From the NCBI RefSeq assembly GCF_008274585.1, contig NZ_VTRT01000003.1, positions 62,001-126,000 of the forward strand: a DNA stretch of 64,000 bases, in the 5' to 3' direction. Each line of letters opens with the position of its first letter. Positions within the stretch are counted from its first letter, which is position 1. Below are positions 53,236-64,000 of the stretch, one piece after another. Position numbers and translations under genes: made by a program. The stretch is from Pedobacter sp. BS3. Lineage in GTDB: Bacteria > Bacteroidota > Bacteroidia > Sphingobacteriales > Sphingobacteriaceae. Under the pieces are notes generated by a model. That model had not been told where the DNA came from. It did not search any database and saw only the letters and a list, made by a program, of their open reading frames with translations.

Positions 53236-54024
53236 ATGATGAAAATGGCATTTAAATCCGCCGTGCTGCTTTTAGCCCTGACTTGTATTGGCAGTGCTCA
53301 GGCCCAGGTAGTAACCCTCGATTATTTTTTCAATCATGAAACCCGTAAAAGTAAAACCGGCGAAATGGTTCAGTATCATTACACCTGGGAAGATAAAACC
53401 AATACCGGCTATTCGGTATGGGGCGACATTTTCAAACAAAACGGGGCTCAGCTAAAATCATTGAGCGAAGCGCCTGCTGCCGCCAATTTGAAAGGAACGG
53501 ATATCTATATCATCCCTGACCCGGACACAAAGAAAGAAAGCCCATCGCCTAATTATATTGAGCCAGCCCATATTAAGGCTATTTCGCAATGGGTAAAAGC
53601 CGGTGGTGTATTGGTAATGCTGGCTAATGATAGTGCCAACGTAGAATTACAGCATTTCAACAATCTTGCCGCAGCGTTCGGTATGCATTTCAACACAGAC
53701 CTGCAAAATCATGTAATTGATGATAACCATTTTGAAGACGGAGCTATTGTAACAACCGGCAACCCTGTTTTTAAAACTGCAAAGAAGATCTTCATGAAAG
53801 ATGTTTGCTCCATTTCGGTGCAGCGTCCGGCTCAAGCCGTTTTGAAGAATAAACAAGGAGCTATTGTTATTGCTTCGGCTAACGTTGGCAAAGGTAAAGT
53901 TGTTGCTGTTAGCGATCCCTGGATATACAATGAATATTGTAACGGGCGGCTACCTGCTCAATATGAGAATTACAAAGGTGCCGAGGATTTTTCGAAATGG
54001 CTGATTGGTTTGGCTAAGAAATAG
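53236..54024 (+). CDS. Secreted protein resembling the accessory domain of GH88-type hydrolases
   Basis: A 262-residue protein with a signal peptide (cleavage after AQA, about residue 24). The mature part (VVTLDYFFNHETRKS ... YHYTWEDKTNTGYSVWGDIF, LKGTDIYIIPDPDTKKE, WVKAGGVLVMLANDSAN) closely follows the extra domain that I know from the C-terminal side of Bacteroidota unsaturated rhamnogalacturonyl hydrolases (GH88/GH105), a ThuA/class-I-glutamine-amidotransferase-like fold. Here it occurs without the catalytic domain. It lies next to the pectin-type utilisation locus but on the opposite strand. The similarity is from memory, so the link is moderately certain and any enzymatic activity is unknown. 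Confidence 0.6.
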   Translation: MMKMAFKSAVLLLALTCIGSAQAQVVTLDYFFNHETRKSKTGEMVQYHYTWEDKTNTGYSVWGDIFKQNGAQLKSLSEAPAAANLKGTDIYIIPDPDTKKESPSPNYIEPAHIKAISQWVKAGGVLVMLANDSANVELQHFNNLAAAFGMHFNTDLQNHVIDDNHFEDGAIVTTGNPVFKTAKKIFMKDVCSISVQRPAQAVLKNKQGAIVIASANVGKGKVVAVSDPWIYNEYCNGRLPAQYENYKGAEDFSKWLIGLAKK

Positions 54025-54172: not shown

Positions 54173-55321
54173 TTACTGCTTCACAAAAGTAGAACAACCT
54201 GATTTTCCGCCTGCCTTAAAAAACAGTATATATACTCCTGGTGCAAGAGCCGATACATCTGTTGATGCGCTTGTTGAGCCCGTTAAAACCAGCTGACTAC
54301 TTAGCAGTTTTCCCTGGGTATTCATGATTTTTATTTCGCCGTTTGCGCTTGTTTCAGGGTAAGCTACAGTTACGTTCTGCAATGCAGGATTAGGATATAA
54401 CGATATGGCTTGTACCCCAAGCTTATTATTAATGCTTTTTACATCACTGTACGTGAATTTGCCATCAATATCCAGTTGTCTGATACGATAATAATTCATT
54501 CCTGCCAAAGGATGATTGTCTGCAAATGTATAGCTGTGAGCACCCGGAGTATTTTTAGCAGGAATATTGCCTATGGTATAAAAAGCACCACTGTCATTAG
54601 CCCGTTCTATTTCAAACGTACGGGTATTCACTTCATTCGCGGTTGTCCACGACAGGTTAGTCTGATTACCGGTTGGGTTTAATTCAGCATCAAAGGATGT
54701 AAAATTCAGCGGCAGGGTGCCTTCGGCGCCGGTAAAGCCGCTAATAATAACATTTTTGCTGACAAAAAATTTATCAGCCTGAACTGAAGTAACCCACGGA
54801 GAAATACGAATAGTTAGCGATTTACCGGCAGGAGTAAACAAATTCAAATCATTAAAGGAATAATTTACTGTTGAATTGTTTGTACCATACGAAGCAATAG
54901 CATAATCTGTTACAATATTATTAAAATCAACTCCATCTATTGACCATGAAATGTTCACCTTACAGGCTGAACTTGAATTGAAGGCCATACCAATGGAAAG
55001 AGAGGTTATTAACATTTCGTCAGAGCTATTAGGGGCAAGGATATAATCGATATGCCTGCCAGCCTGTGGCCCTGTTTCTGCCGGCCAGTTAGCGTATGTA
55101 TCACTTAATCTCTGCCCTTTTTCGCCATTTATATAAGCAGATACAGCCATTCCTGTTGGGGATTGTACCTGCGCTGTTATATTGCCTGTTGTTGTAGGTG
55201 TTCGTGTGGCTTCAGAAACTAAGCCCCAGGTTGCACTTGCCGCTGTTTGCGCATAAAGTTGTGCTGTGGTTAATACGATTATACCTGATAAGAGTGCCGA
55301 ATACATACTTTTCTTTTTCAT
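54173..55321 (-). CDS. Type IX-secreted protein with one CBM-like module
   Basis: A 382-residue secreted protein: signal peptide (to about 25), then one copy (about 28-195) of the module that is tandemly repeated in the adjacent pectate lyase (TASATWGL start, NWPAETGP, FNSSSACKVNISWSIDGVDF, SKNVIISGF end). A fibronectin-like link region follows (LNFTSFDAEL... NLSWTTANEVNTRTFEIERA), and a type A type IX C-terminal domain (YPNPALQNVTVAYPE ... APGVYILFF). There is no catalytic domain. It begins 46 bases after the lyase stop codon and is most likely the last gene of the susCD-lyase operon. A glycan-binding role on the cell surface is inferred. Confidence 0.75.
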   Translation of the reverse strand: MKKKSMYSALLSGIIVLTTAQLYAQTAASATWGLVSEATRTPTTTGNITAQVQSPTGMAVSAYINGEKGQRLSDTYANWPAETGPQAGRHIDYILAPNSSDEMLITSLSIGMAFNSSSACKVNISWSIDGVDFNNIVTDYAIASYGTNNSTVNYSFNDLNLFTPAGKSLTIRISPWVTSVQADKFFVSKNVIISGFTGAEGTLPLNFTSFDAELNPTGNQTNLSWTTANEVNTRTFEIERANDSGAFYTIGNIPAKNTPGAHSYTFADNHPLAGMNYYRIRQLDIDGKFTYSDVKSINNKLGVQAISLYPNPALQNVTVAYPETSANGEIKIMNTQGKLLSSQLVLTGSTSASTDVSALAPGVYILFFKAGGKSGCSTFVKQ

Positions 55322-55367
55322 AATTGCTGATTATTAGTGATTTTTAATTTGGTTTTTTAGTTTTTGC

Positions 55368-58300
55368 TCATCTCTTTACAAACATTATCTGCTGTTTAGC
55401 AGTAACATTATTTAATTCAAGAATATATACCCCGGACGCAAGCGATGCTGTACCGACTTGTGTCTGTGTAACGCCTTGTTGAAGCGTTTGCCGGTACAAT
55501 TGTTTGCCATCGCGGGTATAAATAATGATCTCTGCCGAAGCATTAGCATTGGAGTGGTTTACAGTTAATAAGCTGTTTACCGGGTTTGGATAAACTACCA
55601 GTTTTTTTACATCAGCCTGGTTTTTCACGGCAGTAGCGTTTTTTGAGGAATCTGCCACCAGGTTTAAAACAAGCAGGTCATCTGTGTTTACGGTTATTAC
55701 ATCGCTATAAACAGTATTCCCGCTTCCATCAGACCTATAGCTTCCTACTTTGTAATACACTAATCCTGCAGGTGCAGAAAGATCAGTGATAACATACCGG
55801 GTTTTGTTAATATCCGGAAAGATCTCTGTGATTTTGGTAAATGTGCTGTCATCCGTTGAGCGGTATAAGGCAAATTTGAACTGATCCTTCGCCCAATCGA
55901 TAGTAAAATCCACGCTAACAGCATCGCCACTAAGGTGTGTACCGTTGATCTGTTCAAACGTAACAGGCTTATCGGGGGAAGGTATGGCATTCAGGTATTT
56001 TTCCAGCATGGTATAACCGTCATCGGCGTAGCTGGTTGCATTCACACTGGTGGAATCGGTTCCGCCGCCGTTAATTTTAGCTTCCCACCAATCCGGCATA
56101 CCATCGTTATCGCTGTCGTTTGGATATGTGGTACTATTTAAGGCCGGCCATCCCCCTACCGTTTCCTGGCTATCTATAATGCCGGATGGGTTGCTTATTC
56201 CTGCCGGGTGATAGCTAGTATCGGCGTAGGTAGCTGTACCGGTACGGGTCTCACGGATAATACGGCGATCAAGCGTATCCCTGCGAGGCAAAATGGCCCC
56301 GGCGCTATCTGTTACCAATAAATAAGCGTTCTCTGCTGTTTGTGTGGTAACCGGGGTATACGGAAAAGGCGTATCCACACGGGCATTGATCACATCCTGT
56401 GAGGTTCCGTTAGCATCCGGATACACACCATACGTCCAGTTATTATCATCCGTATCACTTGCTTCTGTTACACACGAATAGCCCGGAACATAATTTCCTT
56501 TGATGTAAAATTTGCCCCCTCTTACGGTATCGCCCGAAGTATTTATACTATACGTTGTGTACGAAAGAATACGATGGCGATGGTTACCAATAGTACAGAA
56601 CGCACTACCGGTAGTTGCAGGACCCGGCTTGTAATAATTATTAACCATGTTGATATGTCCCCCTTCGCCGCCATACGATGAACCGCCCCAGTTATAAATC
56701 ACATTATTCCTAAAATCGACATACTCCAGCTCAGGCTGCATGGTAGCAAGGCTTCCCGAAAACCGGGGATTACGATTAGTGTTGCTGGCCAATAGATTGT
56801 GATGAAATGAAGCATTCTGCCCACCCCAGATACCGCCATATCCATGCCCGGTATGGTCGCCGCCGGTTGTTTTATGATGATATGAGTAATACAGGCTTTC
56901 GCTTAACAGGCTCCATTGAAGCGTAAAATCAGAAACAGCGTAAAATGATCCTATTTCGTCTGTTGACCAGCTCAGCGAACAATGATCTATAATAATATTG
57001 GAATAAGGATGTGTCAGCGGCACGCCAAATCCATTTCCCATGGCATCCAGATCGGTATGAGCCGGGTCGCCCGGACGTAAACGGATATAACGGATAATGA
57101 TATTGTTGGCTTTAATGGCAATTCCCCATTTTTTCAGGCAAATGCCATCGCCCGGAGCCGTTTGCCCGGCTATGGTAATATTATCTTTGATGATATTAAT
57201 CCGGCTTTGCAGTTCGATAGTCCCCGAAACCTTAAATAATACCGTCCGGAAAGGCTGACTGACAGCATCACGTAAGCTGCCCGGGCCGGAGTCGTTCAGG
57301 TTGGTAACATAGTAAACACTTCCTCCCCGCCCACCTTTGGCAAAGCGTCCTCCTCCTTCGGCTCCGGGAAACGCTACCTGCCGGAAAGGTTCTGTAAGAC
57401 CGCTAATCACTACATTTCTTGATACCAGGTAACGGCCATCGCTAATCAAAGCGCCTGTCCAGGGAGAAACCTTCAGGTAAAGGGTTTTCCCGGTAGGGAT
57501 TTCAATATTCAGGTTATCAAATGTATAGCTGTGCGGTACAGATCCTGATGCTAAAGGCTGGTCGGCCACCAGGTTAGTATAACTTACGTTATCCAGCGAC
57601 CAGGAAATGCGGACATGGCCATAGCCGGATGAATTGAAGCTTAACGGTACCGTGATTTGATTAACGGTAAAGTTATTCCCGGCAACGGGAGAAACTGTGT
57701 ACAGCACATAACGGCTATTGTTCGGGCCGGTTTCCGCGGGCCATATTCCTCCCGATGGCAGTAAGCGTTGTCCCCCATTTCCGGGAATGTAATTATTCAC
57801 AGTCAAACCGGTCAGGGCCTGGTCTGTCGCAGCAATATTACCACTAACCGTAGCCGACTGGTTTGCGGTTAATGCCCAGGTGGCTACGGGAACGCTCCTG
57901 GCATAACCCGAAACGGTTACATTTTTTGAAACAAGGTATTTACCACTAATGGAGGCTGTTGTCCAGGGAAATACCCGCAGGTACAATGTTTTTCCTTCGG
58001 GGACATCAATATCCAGGTCGCTCCTGGTAAGTAATGTGGCATCTGTACCTGATGATAGCGTAACGGGCGCTCCCAGTTGTTCAAAATGAATACCATCGGT
58101 TGAGTATGCAAGCTGCGCCCTTGCCGCGGATGAGCTGTTAAAGCTTAGATAAAGCGAAATGTCGGTAACCGTTAATGCCTTGCCGCTGGTTGGAGAAACC
58201 GTATATTGCAGGTACCGGTTACTATTCGGGCCCGTTTCTGCAGGCCATGTTCCGGTGCCGTCTGTTACCTGCTGACCTTTATTCCCGGAGATATAACTGT

Positions 58301-58970
58301 AAACAGACAGGCCGGTTACTGTTTGTGCACCGGCAGTAATATCGCCGCTGGTTGTAACCTGCTGATTTGCTGTAAGCTGCCAGTTTGCAACCGGTGCTGT
58401 TGTAGTTGTACCGGAAATTGTTATCCCCTTAGTAACCAGGTATCTGGAATTGATTACCCCGGTTGTATACGGAGAAATCCTGAAATATAACGTTTTGCCA
58501 CTCTGAACGGTAATATTCAAATCACTGAACGTGTATTCTGTTGGTGTGGATGAAGAAGTCAGCCAGAAATCGGGCGTGATACTGGTAAAATGAACACTAT
58601 CTGTAGACCACGACAGGTTTGCCCGGGCCGCCCCGGAACTATTGAAACTCAACGCGATCTTAATTTCATCAACCAGCAGGTTATTGCCATTAACCGGGGC
58701 CACACGATATTGTAAAAAACGGGTACTATCCGGCGCTGTTTGCGCCGGCCATGAATTACCGGGCGGAATAGTCCGTTCGCCGCCGCTGATGTAATCGTAA
58801 TGATTTAATCCTTCCAGTTGCCCGGCGGAAGCCGTAATATTACCAGTAACAATCGCATTATGATTAGCAGTAAGCGCCCATGTTGCACTGGCAGCAGTTT
58901 GTGCCATCGCATAAAAACAACTGCTGGTTAGCAGGCAAATAATGATTAGGCTGAGTAAAACTTTGTTCAT
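55368..58970 (-). CDS. Secreted pectate lyase (PL1-like) with three tandem N-terminal modules
   Basis: A 1200-residue type IX-exported lyase; ATG at 58970 is preferred to a GTG two codons earlier. After the signal peptide come three copies of a ~167-residue module (about 29-188, 195-356, 363-525), each with ATWALTAN-type opening, WPAETGPNxxRY, FNSSGxARAxLSWSTD and a (T/K)NVTVSG end. A right-handed beta-helix lyase domain follows from AFPGAEGGGRFAKGGRGG (about 532) through NLNDSGPGSLRDAVSQ, IAGQTAPGDGI and IRYIRLRPGD to about 960, the pattern of bacterial pectate lyases. Then a linker, and a type A type IX domain (YPNPVNSLLTVNHS, SGVYILELNNV). It cleaves pectate by beta-elimination by family precedent. 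It lies 79 bases after susD in the same operon. Confidence 0.87.
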   Translation of the reverse strand: MNKVLLSLIIICLLTSSCFYAMAQTAASATWALTANHNAIVTGNITASAGQLEGLNHYDYISGGERTIPPGNSWPAQTAPDSTRFLQYRVAPVNGNNLLVDEIKIALSFNSSGAARANLSWSTDSVHFTSITPDFWLTSSSTPTEYTFSDLNITVQSGKTLYFRISPYTTGVINSRYLVTKGITISGTTTTAPVANWQLTANQQVTTSGDITAGAQTVTGLSVYSYISGNKGQQVTDGTGTWPAETGPNSNRYLQYTVSPTSGKALTVTDISLYLSFNSSSAARAQLAYSTDGIHFEQLGAPVTLSSGTDATLLTRSDLDIDVPEGKTLYLRVFPWTTASISGKYLVSKNVTVSGYARSVPVATWALTANQSATVSGNIAATDQALTGLTVNNYIPGNGGQRLLPSGGIWPAETGPNNSRYVLYTVSPVAGNNFTVNQITVPLSFNSSGYGHVRISWSLDNVSYTNLVADQPLASGSVPHSYTFDNLNIEIPTGKTLYLKVSPWTGALISDGRYLVSRNVVISGLTEPFRQVAFPGAEGGGRFAKGGRGGSVYYVTNLNDSGPGSLRDAVSQPFRTVLFKVSGTIELQSRINIIKDNITIAGQTAPGDGICLKKWGIAIKANNIIIRYIRLRPGDPAHTDLDAMGNGFGVPLTHPYSNIIIDHCSLSWSTDEIGSFYAVSDFTLQWSLLSESLYYSYHHKTTGGDHTGHGYGGIWGGQNASFHHNLLASNTNRNPRFSGSLATMQPELEYVDFRNNVIYNWGGSSYGGEGGHINMVNNYYKPGPATTGSAFCTIGNHRHRILSYTTYSINTSGDTVRGGKFYIKGNYVPGYSCVTEASDTDDNNWTYGVYPDANGTSQDVINARVDTPFPYTPVTTQTAENAYLLVTDSAGAILPRRDTLDRRIIRETRTGTATYADTSYHPAGISNPSGIIDSQETVGGWPALNSTTYPNDSDNDGMPDWWEAKINGGGTDSTSVNATSYADDGYTMLEKYLNAIPSPDKPVTFEQINGTHLSGDAVSVDFTIDWAKDQFKFALYRSTDDSTFTKITEIFPDINKTRYVITDLSAPAGLVYYKVGSYRSDGSGNTVYSDVITVNTDDLLVLNLVADSSKNATAVKNQADVKKLVVYPNPVNSLLTVNHSNANASAEIIIYTRDGKQLYRQTLQQGVTQTQVGTASLASGVYILELNNVTAKQQIMFVKR

Positions 58971-59049
58971 GCGCACCGTTATTAAAAGTTCAATAAAACT
59001 TCCGGTAACAGGCGCTTATGTATCGACCTGTTCCCGGAAGCCTGAGTTA

Positions 59050-60813
59050 TCAATACCCGTAATCCTGGGTTATTAGCGGATTCGCGTCCCGTGCCGATTG
59101 CGGTATGGGCAGCAGTTCACTGTGATTTGGCCGAAACAACTGTGCCAGATTGGTTATCCAGGTGGTGGTTATTGAGGCTACCCAATTTACCCGTGTATAG
59201 CCTGTTGGTGCGGTAGCCGGCGATGGTTCATACAATGAATTACCCCATATAACTTCTGTAGATCCCGGTTTATAATACATGTATTTCGGAAGCTTATCGT
59301 AAGGCGCCTCCTGGTTTAACATTTTGGTATAATTATCCCGGGCTTCCTGTATTTTCTGTCCCAGCAAATTCCACCGGATGAGATCGTACTTTCGTATACC
59401 CTCGCCCCCAAACTCAAAATAACGTTCATTTACAATAGCGTTAAAAAAATCTTCTTTGGTTGATGGCGTTACACCGATTTCTGTTTCATGGCCTTTAAAA
59501 GCCCGTTTTCTTACTTCTTCATACGCGTTTTTAGCATCAGCCGTAGGCCCATTGTTCAGCTCATTTTCGGCTTCGGCAAACATCAGCAGCACATCAGAAA
59601 AACGGATGATCGGCCAGTTAATACCGGTTGCCTGTATAGCTGAGGTTAGTGCCGGATTGATCCAGTCTGACCGGAATTTCCCGCTGGTCATATTTACCAG
59701 TGTTTGTACAGCCTTGGTTTTATCGGCATTATTGTAATACGGAGTTGTAGTTACATCGCGACGGGTATCCAGCGAATTAAAGGCGTAAAAATATACGGGA
59801 ACAACACGTACCGAACCATTACCTAGTAAAGCAGTATTACCGGGAATGTAAAACCTCGGACCATCGTAATATCCCAGTTTACTGTCCACCTCACGAGCCA
59901 TCGCTACCTCGAACATGACTTCGCCGTGAGGCTCTATTTTATAGGAATCTATACCATCTTTAAATACAGCCTGGAAACTTGGGTTCAGGGTATGCTGATC
60001 GCGATGCTGCATAATATCATAGCACTCATCGCGTGCAATCTGGTAATAGGTAAGATAGTCTGGCCGGCGCTCCATAACGCCGGATTCGCGGCGCAGCGAA
60101 TATCCCCCACGGTACAGCGCCATGCGGGCACGCAAAGCCTTCACAGCCCCTTTGGTGATGCGTTCATCCGAAGCTACTTCTGTACGCCAGGGTACCAAAT
60201 CTTCGGCAGTTTTCAGATCGGCTATCAATCGGTCGTAAATCTCATCGCGATCTGTTTTTGGCAGGAACAGATCCGGCTGATCGATAGATGGCTCAAACTG
60301 GGCCGGAATATCTCCCCAATTTCGGATAAGTTCAAGATAAAACTGGGCCCTGAGGGTAAGCGCCTCGCCATACAGGCGCTGCAACTGTTTTTTATCGTCA
60401 GCACTGCCATTGGTGTACAGATCCATGGCTGGTATATTCTTGATACAGATATTAGCCCGTTCTACCCCGGCATACAATTGGTTAAATGGTGCAGATAATT
60501 GGGCATTACTGGGTTGCAGATTATATCGCGAAAGATCCCGTGAACTGTTATCTGGTGAAGCTGCATTAGTAACACCGATCATTTCGTCGGTATCATAAGG
60601 ATACATCATGCTGAGACGGCTGCCATAAGCCTGGTCGCCGGCAAGCCGATCATAAACGCCCAGAACAGCGCTTGTTGCACTGCTAACACTGCTGAACACG
60701 TATTTTTCGTCAAATGCAGATGGCGGTTCCAGGTCGAGGTATTTTTTACATGCGCTGCTCAATGTAATTAAGGCTGCAACCATCAGTACCAGGTAATATC
60801 TTGTTGTTTTCAT
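59050..60813 (-). CDS. SusD/RagB-family outer-membrane glycan-binding lipoprotein
   Basis: Surface lipoprotein that captures oligosaccharides and hands them to the SusC transporter. Signal with lipobox LSSAC (Cys at about 22) and the mature CKKYLDLEPPSAFDE typical of SusD. Four TPR-like helices form the scaffold, and conserved pieces are ERANICIKNIPAM, YGEALTLRAQFYLELIRNWGDIP, YEEVRKRAF and NERYFEFGGEGIRKYDLIRWN. ATG at 60813 is used instead of the GTG one codon before. Length 587 is normal. It starts 12 bases after susC, so the two are co-translated as usual. Confidence 0.95.
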   Translation of the reverse strand: MKTTRYYLVLMVAALITLSSACKKYLDLEPPSAFDEKYVFSSVSSATSAVLGVYDRLAGDQAYGSRLSMMYPYDTDEMIGVTNAASPDNSSRDLSRYNLQPSNAQLSAPFNQLYAGVERANICIKNIPAMDLYTNGSADDKKQLQRLYGEALTLRAQFYLELIRNWGDIPAQFEPSIDQPDLFLPKTDRDEIYDRLIADLKTAEDLVPWRTEVASDERITKGAVKALRARMALYRGGYSLRRESGVMERRPDYLTYYQIARDECYDIMQHRDQHTLNPSFQAVFKDGIDSYKIEPHGEVMFEVAMAREVDSKLGYYDGPRFYIPGNTALLGNGSVRVVPVYFYAFNSLDTRRDVTTTPYYNNADKTKAVQTLVNMTSGKFRSDWINPALTSAIQATGINWPIIRFSDVLLMFAEAENELNNGPTADAKNAYEEVRKRAFKGHETEIGVTPSTKEDFFNAIVNERYFEFGGEGIRKYDLIRWNLLGQKIQEARDNYTKMLNQEAPYDKLPKYMYYKPGSTEVIWGNSLYEPSPATAPTGYTRVNWVASITTTWITNLAQLFRPNHSELLPIPQSARDANPLITQDYGY

Positions 60814-60825
60814 CACGCTGAGTTT

Positions 60826-63800
60826 TTATAATGAAAGATTTAATCCTAAAATAAAGCTCCGGCTTCTGGGATATGCCGACCAGTCAACTCCCGGTGTAAC
60901 CGGTGTAGTTCGCCGTGTATTCACTTCGGGGTCATACCCGGAATAACCGGTAATCACGGCCAGGTTATTGACTGTACCGTAAACCCGCAGATTTTTTATT
61001 TTCAGCGGGCTTAACAAACGGACTGGAAAAGTATAGCCGAGTGTAATGTTATTGATCCGCAAAAACGAGCCGTCTTCCATAGCCCATGATGTAGGATACC
61101 AGGCTCCCACGCCGCTTATCGGCATCCATATCGAAGCGTTTTTGTTAATGGCAGCCAATTCTTCCGGCGGCACACCGGTTACTACCTGCTGGCCTGAAAT
61201 GGTAACTACCTGCTGAATAACATTACCATTATTATCAATGGTGCGCCAGCGGTTATTCATGATGGCCAGCGAATTGTTATTCCGGCTGTATCCGTTTGTA
61301 AATTCAATTTTATTGGCATTATACACTTTATTGCCGTACACAAAGTTTACGAATACGCTTAAATCGAAATTTTTATACGTAAACTGTTGGTTGAGGCCAC
61401 CGGTAAACTTGGGATTGGCGTTACCGATAATAGTTTTGTCGCTTTCATCGATAACCTGGTTGCCATCCAGATCTTTCAGTTTCATCCATCCTGGCTGAGC
61501 AATACCTATTGCATTCGAAACATCGGTTACGCCGGGTTTGAGTGTGTACTGACTTGTTGCCGCATCGTAGTTAAAATCATCAACAGTATAAAACCCGTCG
61601 GAAACAAAGCCGTACATGGTTCCTACCGGCTCGCCTACTTTTACAATATAGTCTGCCGGCTGCCCCGATATTCCGAACCCTGAATTTGTAAGATAACTGT
61701 TTTGCTGATTGGATAGCTTTTCAATCTTGTTGCGGTTAAAAGCCATGTTGAAGTTAGTGCTCCAGGTAAAGTTTTTATGCCGGATGGCCACTGCATTTAG
61801 CTGAAATTCCAGTCCACGGTTGGATGTGCTTCCCACATTCTGCATTTGAGTAGTATAGCCAGCTGTGGGTGGTATGGGAACAAGGATCAGCAGATCACGC
61901 ACAGAATTTTTATAGGCATCAACGGTTAGTTGGATACGGTCTTTAAGTAACGACAGGTCAAGCCCGATATTCCGCGATACGGTGGTCTCCCATTTCAGGT
62001 TCTTATTAGCCAGGCTGCTTACGGTATATCCCGGCACTACCTGCTCATTAAGCGCATATTTAACCGGCAGATCATTATACGTGCTGCTAAAAATATTCAT
62101 GTACAAATAATCGTCCATACGGTTATTACCGGATGTACCGTAGCTGGCACGAAGTTTCAGATCGGATATTACCGGGATATTTTTCATAAAATCTTCCTGC
62201 GATATACGCCAGGCGACTGCTCCCGACGGGAAATAACCCCAGCGCTTATCGGGTGCGAATTTTGACGATCCGTCTGCACGCATACTGAATGTAGCCAGGT
62301 ATTTGTCTTTGTAGGCGTAATTGGCCCGGCCAAAGAACGATACAATACGGCTCTCGTAAGCTGTTGCTAAAGGATATGAAGGAACAGATGTACCAATATT
62401 CAGCTGATTCAGCGCTTTTTCGGCCGTGATACCAACCGGAAAATTTTTCAGCTCGTTATCCAGGCTTTTTGCCGATACATTATAAAATTCGTTTCCAAGC
62501 AAGGCATCAAAATGATGATCTGACTTTTTTGAATTAGTATAAGAGAACACATTGGAATTGGTTAAGCTGCTGATATTATTGGTTACCACGCTAACCATCG
62601 GCATGCCGGCACCCTGGTTTCTTGCCTTCGATGTGATATAATCATAGAAGCTGTTTAGCGTTTGATTCGTATAATTTACGCCCAGTGTTGACTTGAATGA
62701 AAAGTGTTTATTAAACGTATAGTTGATATAGCCGTTCAGGTTGGTAACTTTAGTATACCGTTTACGGTACATGGCGTCACTTAATAGCACCGGATTAATA
62801 ATGCCCACACCGTTACCGGTATTGGTTTCCTCATAATAGGCCTCGTCCAGATCTTCGGGCGATAAATTACCAATGAGCAAAGGCCGGTATTTAATGGTAT
62901 GCCGTAACAAGTTATATGACACCGCTCCTGCATCAGATGTACCTGCGCCCGTAATAACCTGGTTGTTGTACCGTATATTAAAGCCTGCTCTTAACGCGTT
63001 ACTTACGTGGGTATCAAACCTGAAATTAACAAGCTTACGGTCAAAATCAGAGTTGAGCATGATACCATCTTCGCCATTGCTGGTCATGCTCAGGTTAAAT
63101 TGCGTGGTTTTGGTTCCGCCTACAATGCTTACATTATGGGTCTGGGTGATGGCATCGTTACCAAATGTTTTTTTCTGCCAGTCTATAAACGGTACACTTT
63201 TATACTGATCTAAATCTTCCCAATTGCCATACGTTTCGGCAAAACCGTTTTCTGTAGTGGTTAATCCGCGTGATCTTTCATATTGGCTGATCACGAAATC
63301 ATAAGGATGCATAACATCAAGCTCATTAGCCAGGCTTTTAAGACCTACCAGGCCATTATAATTTACCCGTGTTTTCATCACCTTCCCTCCTTTGGTCGTG
63401 ATAATAACCACTCCATTGGCCCCACGTGCACCATATATGGAAGTTGCCGAAGCATCTTTCAGTACATCCACAGATTCTATATCCTGCGGCGACAGGCTGG
63501 ATAAACCATCATCCACAACAATACCATCTATAACATATAACGGTGAATTGTCCTGGGTAATTGAACCACCGCCCCGCACTTTAATCTGCACTTCAGAGCC
63601 CGGCGCTCCTTCGGAAGAAGTAACCTGTACACCAGCCAGCCGGCCGGCCAGCGCCTCGGCGGCAGAGTTAATGGGAATATCTTTTAACTGCTTTTCGCCA
63701 ACTGAAGAAACCGAGCCGGTCAGATCTCTCCGGTTTACCGTAGCGTATCCGATAGCTACCACTTCATTGAGCTGAATATTATCATTTTTTAGCCGGAAAT

Positions 63801-64000
63801 GAGCAGTATTCTGGTTACCGGTAACAGTAATTTCCTGTGTTTTATAACCTATATAACGTGCTACTAACGTAATGTTGCCCTTAGCAGAAGTAGTTATGCT
63901 GAAATTGCCATTCGCATCGGTCTGTGTGCCTTTTGTCTCCCCTTTTATTACAATACTTACGCCAATCAATGACTCGTTGGTATCTGCATCTTTTACATTG
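60826..64000 (-). CDS. SusC/RagA-family TonB-dependent transporter, 5' end outside the window
   Basis: Outer-membrane transporter for oligosaccharides. The open frame continues through position 64000, so the N-terminal signal peptide and the start are missing; about 1,058 residues are visible. An N-terminal carboxypeptidase-like domain (LIGVSIVIKGE to FRLKND) is followed by a TonB plug (VSSVGEKQLKDIPINSAAEALAGRLAGVQV, VRGGGSITQDNSPLYVIDGI) with the SusC signature DVLKDASATSIYGARGANGVVIIT, and a 22-strand barrel with the C-terminal Phe-x-Leu-Gly-Leu-type end (FILGLNLSL). With the downstream susD, pectate lyase and module protein this is a polysaccharide utilisation locus; pectin is the likely substrate from the lyase. 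The regulator would be upstream, out of view. Confidence 0.95.
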   Translation of the reverse strand, partial: NVKDADTNESLIGVSIVIKGETKGTQTDANGNFSITTSAKGNITLVARYIGYKTQEITVTGNQNTAHFRLKNDNIQLNEVVAIGYATVNRRDLTGSVSSVGEKQLKDIPINSAAEALAGRLAGVQVTSSEGAPGSEVQIKVRGGGSITQDNSPLYVIDGIVVDDGLSSLSPQDIESVDVLKDASATSIYGARGANGVVIITTKGGKVMKTRVNYNGLVGLKSLANELDVMHPYDFVISQYERSRGLTTTENGFAETYGNWEDLDQYKSVPFIDWQKKTFGNDAITQTHNVSIVGGTKTTQFNLSMTSNGEDGIMLNSDFDRKLVNFRFDTHVSNALRAGFNIRYNNQVITGAGTSDAGAVSYNLLRHTIKYRPLLIGNLSPEDLDEAYYEETNTGNGVGIINPVLLSDAMYRKRYTKVTNLNGYINYTFNKHFSFKSTLGVNYTNQTLNSFYDYITSKARNQGAGMPMVSVVTNNISSLTNSNVFSYTNSKKSDHHFDALLGNEFYNVSAKSLDNELKNFPVGITAEKALNQLNIGTSVPSYPLATAYESRIVSFFGRANYAYKDKYLATFSMRADGSSKFAPDKRWGYFPSGAVAWRISQEDFMKNIPVISDLKLRASYGTSGNNRMDDYLYMNIFSSTYNDLPVKYALNEQVVPGYTVSSLANKNLKWETTVSRNIGLDLSLLKDRIQLTVDAYKNSVRDLLILVPIPPTAGYTTQMQNVGSTSNRGLEFQLNAVAIRHKNFTWSTNFNMAFNRNKIEKLSNQQNSYLTNSGFGISGQPADYIVKVGEPVGTMYGFVSDGFYTVDDFNYDAATSQYTLKPGVTDVSNAIGIAQPGWMKLKDLDGNQVIDESDKTIIGNANPKFTGGLNQQFTYKNFDLSVFVNFVYGNKVYNANKIEFTNGYSRNNNSLAIMNNRWRTIDNNGNVIQQVVTISGQQVVTGVPPEELAAINKNASIWMPISGVGAWYPTSWAMEDGSFLRINNITLGYTFPVRLLSPLKIKNLRVYGTVNNLAVITGYSGYDPEVNTRRTTPVTPGVDWSAYPRSRSFILGLNLSL

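Follow-up and report, generated by a model that had tools for sequence, protein, structure and literature searches.

The window (the whole stretch of 64,000 nucleotides of Pedobacter sp. BS3 DNA that was analysed) carries on its minus strand four consecutive genes: a SusC-like TonB-dependent transporter gene (60826..63999, running off the window), a SusD-like gene (59050..60816) directly upstream of the lyase, the gene of a secreted PL1-type pectate lyase (55368..58976) and that of a non-catalytic secreted partner (54173..55321). The SusC- and SusD-like genes were assigned by sequence (by eye) and by synteny, the SusD-like gene being 71–74% identical to the gene at the same position in relatives. 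The gaps between the four genes, in the order given, are 9, 73 and 46 bases, and such spacing on one strand makes an operon likely, so that the four would be co-transcribed. The order SusC–SusD–[module]n–PL1, the module being the repeated unit described below, is kept in five other genomes; beyond the window lie two GDSL-type esterase genes in divergent orientation to SusC, and GDSL esterases divergent to SusC were also found in those syntenic genomes that were checked.

Past the GDSL pair, just outside the window (L134:8805-12244, G000:C21), GHL15-like, glucosamine-6-phosphate isomerase family and GH109-like genes were found; the latter two indicate that the surroundings of the locus are not devoted to pectin alone. 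In another Pedobacter locus (L022) the lyase is likewise followed by a glucosamine-6-phosphate isomerase family gene, and a link to aminosugars may therefore be conserved. Downstream of the partner gene and convergent with it lies a gene (53236-54024) that matches DUF4350 over the cut-off and, marginally, the central domain of lacto-N-biose phosphorylase.

The lyase comprises 1202 aa with GTG as start codon; a start at the ATG two codons further in places its end at 58970, as adopted in the original prediction. It consists of a signal peptide (by eye), three module copies (M1, M2 and M3), a PL1 domain (ca. residues 530-920) and a T9SS type A sorting domain (residues 1128-1201). Within the PL1 domain, I-I-I-D-H is found at residue 661 and N-R-N-P-R-F-S at 734; the solved pectate lyase PDB 9buj matched residues 533-790 (E 1e-53), and the NCBIfam equivalog PelZ (NF041900) matched at E 9e-25, far under the cut-off of that narrow model. 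No match to Pectate_lyase_4 was returned in the lyase by the Pfam scan. Judged by sequence, the catalytic part was confirmed as a PL1 pectate lyase in which the catalytic arginine region is present. The partner (382 aa) consists of a signal peptide (by eye), one module copy (S1), a linker domain (ca. 199-300) that is common in T9SS proteins of this genome, and a T9SS sorting domain (308-382). Its middle and end resemble dozens of the genome's other T9SS proteins, and its first half alone is the module. In both lyase and partner the T9SS tail scored over cut-off with PF18962 and TIGR04183.

A unit of 163–170 residues (ca. 165 aa) is thus present four times, all on the minus strand: M1 (58410..58898; lyase residues 27-189), M2 (57906..58400; residues 193-357) and M3 (57399..57896; residues 361-526, adjoining the catalytic domain) in tandem at the N-terminus of the lyase, and S1 (54737..55246; partner residues 26-195) in the next gene. 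The spacing of the lyase repeats is 166 and 168 residues; pairwise identity is 48–51% among M1–M3 and 39–40% between the lyase copies and S1; alignment scores among the four copies are 311–420, against shuffle maxima of 53–62. The repeats of ca. 167 residues that had been read by eye, three in the lyase and one in the next gene, are therefore real. The motifs that had been ascribed to every copy fared unequally: F-N-S-S occurs in all four; the A-T-W-x-L start reads A-N-W-Q-L in M2; M2, M3 and S1 all have W-P-A-E-T-G-P exactly, where M1 reads W-P-A-Q-T-A-P; and the C-terminal end of M1 is G-I-T-I-S-G, differing from the N-V-x-(I/V)-S-G proposed.

Known families were searched with single copies and with profiles of 4 and 43 rows, and the module gave no credible match in Pfam or NCBIfam (scans) or among PDB sequences. 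The sole Pfam match within the copies was DUF6385 (one copy, E 0.044), and none of the four copies matched the CBM profiles held in Pfam (CBM6, CBM32, CBM35, CBM77 and others). Designed beta-trefoils, returned by the 43-row profile against PDB at E 3e-5, were rejected: each of three repeated stretches scores just 6–10 bits over 24–37 residues. By such comparison the module is unnamed in the Pfam, NCBIfam and PDB sequence libraries, and the earlier remark that it was not recognised as a named CBM family stands for these three, Pfam including many CBMs; among open-licence papers, no description of a pectin CBM of this kind was found.

In the same genome, clear copies occur in the lyase and the partner only; diverged ones were found in a CE8 protein and in frames of 1175 aa and 221 aa. 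The CE8 protein (L159:4092-8483, G000:C1) is a CE8–T9SS protein of 1464 aa with a strongly diverged copy at residues 630-772. A second pectate-lyase cluster of this genome (L163; G000:C24:51000-61500) encodes a module-free PL1–T9SS enzyme (664 aa), with I-I-I-D-H and a similar S-R-S-P-R-F, and a non-catalytic protein of 372 aa, the C-terminal half of which is 43% identical to the window partner and the N-terminal half of which shows no match to the module; the pairing of enzyme and partner recurs there, with a different first domain.

The four-copy window profile was searched in a family sample (201 genomes) and a phylum sample (296 genomes); relatives were found in 16 and 24 genomes, respectively, and a wider profile raised the latter number to 29 of 296. 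Three matches carry names: Sphingobacterium phlebotomi, a Pedobacter sp. and a Pseudobacter MAG. The module had been proposed as specific to this utilisation locus; relatives turned up in 29 of 296 phylum-sample genomes and across many Bacteroidota families, attached to CE8, PL9 and GDSL enzymes besides PL1, and a minority sit in adhesin-like proteins with no pectin link, all of which rules this out.

With a strong match defined as E 1e-20 or better, 25 distinct open frames were obtained from the 296 genomes. A firm pectin-enzyme domain is present in 13 (4 PL1, 8 CE8, 1 PL9), and two more are probably pectin enzymes: L107 with a sub-threshold PL1 match and L096, in which NCBIfam found no PL1 and which was judged by module and length to be a near-twin of a PL1 protein. 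One has a GDSL esterase (L099); three others, without catalytic function, are encoded next to pectin genes (the window partner, a 311-aa protein of genome G234 and a triple-module protein of G413); for the remaining six no pectin link was found, four of them forming one adhesin-like clade. The family sample adds two CE8 enzymes (L091, PemA E 2.6e-25; L120, E 9.4e-41). The catalytic domains of module carriers thus come from several unrelated pectin-active families: PL1 (L093, L094, the second gene of L101, L089, L022), CE8 (L095, L097, L098, L101, L103, L109, L102, L106, L091, L120), PL9 (L100) and the GDSL esterase (L099). It precedes the enzyme domain in most carriers and follows it in L089 and L120; a variable side is what an accessory module would show. 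Similarity to the module was the sole criterion for choosing the matches, and the search had started from a PL1 enzyme; the CE8 and PL9 links are therefore independent evidence. CE8 was found in 14 of the 18 strong-module genomes vs 43 of the 278 others (Fisher p 3.8e-8; p 1.5e-7 minus the window's genome; genome kinship ignored in both).

The non-catalytic members keep similar company: the G234 protein sits with GH28, CE8, GDSL and GH88-family genes, a 410-aa protein (G018) lies near a module-bearing CE8, and the G413 protein adjoins PL9-like and UxaC genes. Two secreted proteins contain a single module: one of 199 aa (Sphingobacterium; signal peptide and one module), encoded behind SusC and SusD where the lyase gene would otherwise stand, and one of 194 aa (G053), a stand-alone module protein that follows the lyase; both suggest that the module is autonomous. 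As read from these sequences, it is a contiguous non-catalytic unit, found on PL1, CE8, PL9 and GDSL enzymes and in single-module proteins, that would fold autonomously.

Larger and more diverged relatives were also observed. Three large T9SS-type proteins (L161, L162, L113; 1400–1700 aa) contain one to three diverged copies each, two of them together with Big_9, cadherin-like and PA14 domains. Proteins of 1170–1210 aa (L119, L121-L124) show three diverged, partial matches at ca. residues 440-1000; in the two that were scanned (L119 and L122) no catalytic domain was recognised, and L119 weakly matches F5/8 type C.

An unrooted tree of 43 module rows was computed. M1 clusters with the first-position modules of the syntenic lyases (support 99/97); M3, the second-position modules and the stand-alone Sphingobacterium module form another group (91/92); M2 falls outside both and is missing from the two-module orthologues. 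This position-wise grouping across species implies that the two-module plan is probably older than the species and that M2 is an additional, middle copy. Recent duplication was ruled out as the origin of the tandem, the first and second modules of two-module lyases separating across species. The adhesin-like proteins fall into a single clade (100/99), which is joined to a module of a PL1 protein (100/96), and in this unrooted tree they may be an offshoot.

Structure prediction, which the original prediction had proposed along with the search for known domains, was run with AlphaFold on alignments of 4 and 9 rows (pLDDT 67 and 68). Both models show a predicted beta-sandwich (jelly-roll) within the final 120 residues, and both are unreliable over the first 45. 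Structural matches include CBM4-2 (Z 9.4, 3.0 A, 125 residues), BT SGBP-B (Z 9.3, 2.7 A, 123 residues), BT0996-C (Z 8.2, 3.5 A, 118 residues) and, at Z ca. 7.4–8.5, CBM35, CBM36, CBM22 and CBM32; xylan, xyloglucan and galactan binders are among them, and Foldseek TM-scores were ca. 0.4. CBM77 was absent among the listed fold matches, an absence that proves nothing. The CBM matches reach Z ca. 7.4–9.4, but non-glycan domains score alike: human meprin MAM (Z 9.6, rmsd 14.2 A), reelin and IFT25 were also returned, so the fold class is compatible with a CBM but does not prove function.

Conserved across the 43 rows (M3 numbering) are W52 (43/43), an aromatic residue at 146 (42/43), R142 (41/43; K in the other two), R44 (39/43), Y36 (39/43) and K/R155 (38/43); such basic and aromatic residues would suit an acidic glycan if exposed. 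The pI of the pectin-linked modules ranges from 4.1 to 9.8, a charge range so wide that no simple electrostatic mechanism fits.

Taken together, the module is probably a carbohydrate-binding module of an unnamed family, with a galactose-binding-like jelly-roll fold, that binds pectin and most likely its galacturonan backbone. Its recurrence throughout Bacteroidota, for the most part on pectin-degrading enzymes of different kinds, points to a module that grips pectin, and the CBM role suggested originally is retained as putative, with several unrelated pectin-enzyme families, the single-module proteins and the jelly-roll model in its favour. The wider proposal, a new homogalacturonan CBM family common to Bacteroidota lyases, methylesterases and non-catalytic T9SS-exported proteins, by which the whole pectin set would recognise the polymer via one domain, is regarded as an evenly balanced proposition.

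Three other readings were weighed. The module could have a structural part in T9SS-exported proteins, as a spacer or a stabilising beta-sandwich that distances the enzyme from the cell surface, or protects it, with no glycan binding. The fold is common to non-glycan domains, the module's relatives are also met in long adhesin-like T9SS proteins that contain Big_9, PA14, SdrD or cohesin domains, and tandem arrays are common among spacers. Such a spacer, however, should be spread over T9SS proteins generally, and this genome has 56 T9SS-tail matches with clear copies only in lyase and partner; it would explain the adhesin-like members, but neither the small one-module proteins nor the bias to PL1, CE8 and PL9, and it is considered unlikely.

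CBMs often bind a wall polymer other than the one their enzyme cuts, as with cellulose- or xylan-binding CBMs on pectinases and esterases. The module could likewise bind another plant-wall glycan (arabinan, galactan, RG-I side chains or cellulose) and bring pectin enzymes near their substrate; the frequency of such mismatch among known CBMs and the xylan, xyloglucan and galactan binders among the structural matches speak for this. The attached PL1, PL9 and CE8 domains nevertheless converge on galacturonan chemistry, as do the known genes beside the non-catalytic members, and another glycan as the ligand appears improbable. That the module binds protein, tethering the lyase to its partner or to SusD/SusC, or else pairing with itself, in a surface pectinase complex, is very unlikely: the enzyme and its non-catalytic neighbour do share copies, such pairs recur (L087, L091, L102) and one copy lies in a cohesin-domain protein, but in several genomes just one protein with the module was found, a CE8, PL1 or PL9 enzyme, and the fold search favours CBM-like sandwiches.

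If the module is a pectin-binding CBM, the three serial copies would hold the surface-attached lyase on pectin by multivalent binding, and the PL1 domain would cut the polymer with the enzyme held there. The partner would be displayed at the surface as a T9SS-exported, non-catalytic glycan-binding protein that gives extra grip near the SusC/SusD port, through which the resulting oligosaccharides would be imported. Few pectin CBMs have been characterised; a module common to PL1, CE8 and PL9 enzymes would serve well as a pectin probe, and as a marker for pectin-active proteins of unassigned family. The surface glycan-binding role is usually assigned to lipoproteins; with the present finding it can be tested whether, in environmental Bacteroidota, non-catalytic proteins exported by the T9SS also take it on.

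Of known systems, NF041900 PelZ and PDB 9buj are alike in the catalytic domain of the lyase, and the match leaves out the module region. CBM4, CBM22, CBM35, CBM36 and CBM32 are of like predicted fold class (Z ca. 7.4–9.4), but no sequence relationship to the module was detected with Pfam or PDB profiles. CBM77 is a pectin-binding family of ca. 110 aa that is linked to PL1 and PL9 in Ruminococcus; like the module it is an accessory unit on pectate lyases, but it is shorter (ca. 110 vs 165 aa) and neither Pfam nor the PDB sequences gave a CBM77 match to the module. Functionally, the closest characterised counterpart is BT0996-C (PDB 7zvo), the C-terminal module of an RG-II enzyme and, like the module, a beta-sandwich in a pectin-active Bacteroidota enzyme, which was reported to bind polygalacturonic acid through a lysine-rich surface (pI 9.43; PMC9843283). 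It comprises 122 aa, with no sequence match found and 5% identity in the structural alignment; the window modules are near-neutral to acidic (pI 4.9–6.7), so the mechanism would differ, and a positive-charge mechanism of that type was set aside as a poor fit to these copies. BT SGBP-B of Bacteroides thetaiotaomicron (PDB 7kwb/7kwc) is a non-catalytic surface glycan-binding protein with a similarly folded domain; it differs in that no sequence match was found and in that the window partner is T9SS cargo and follows the lyase, but by analogy the partner may work in the same way.
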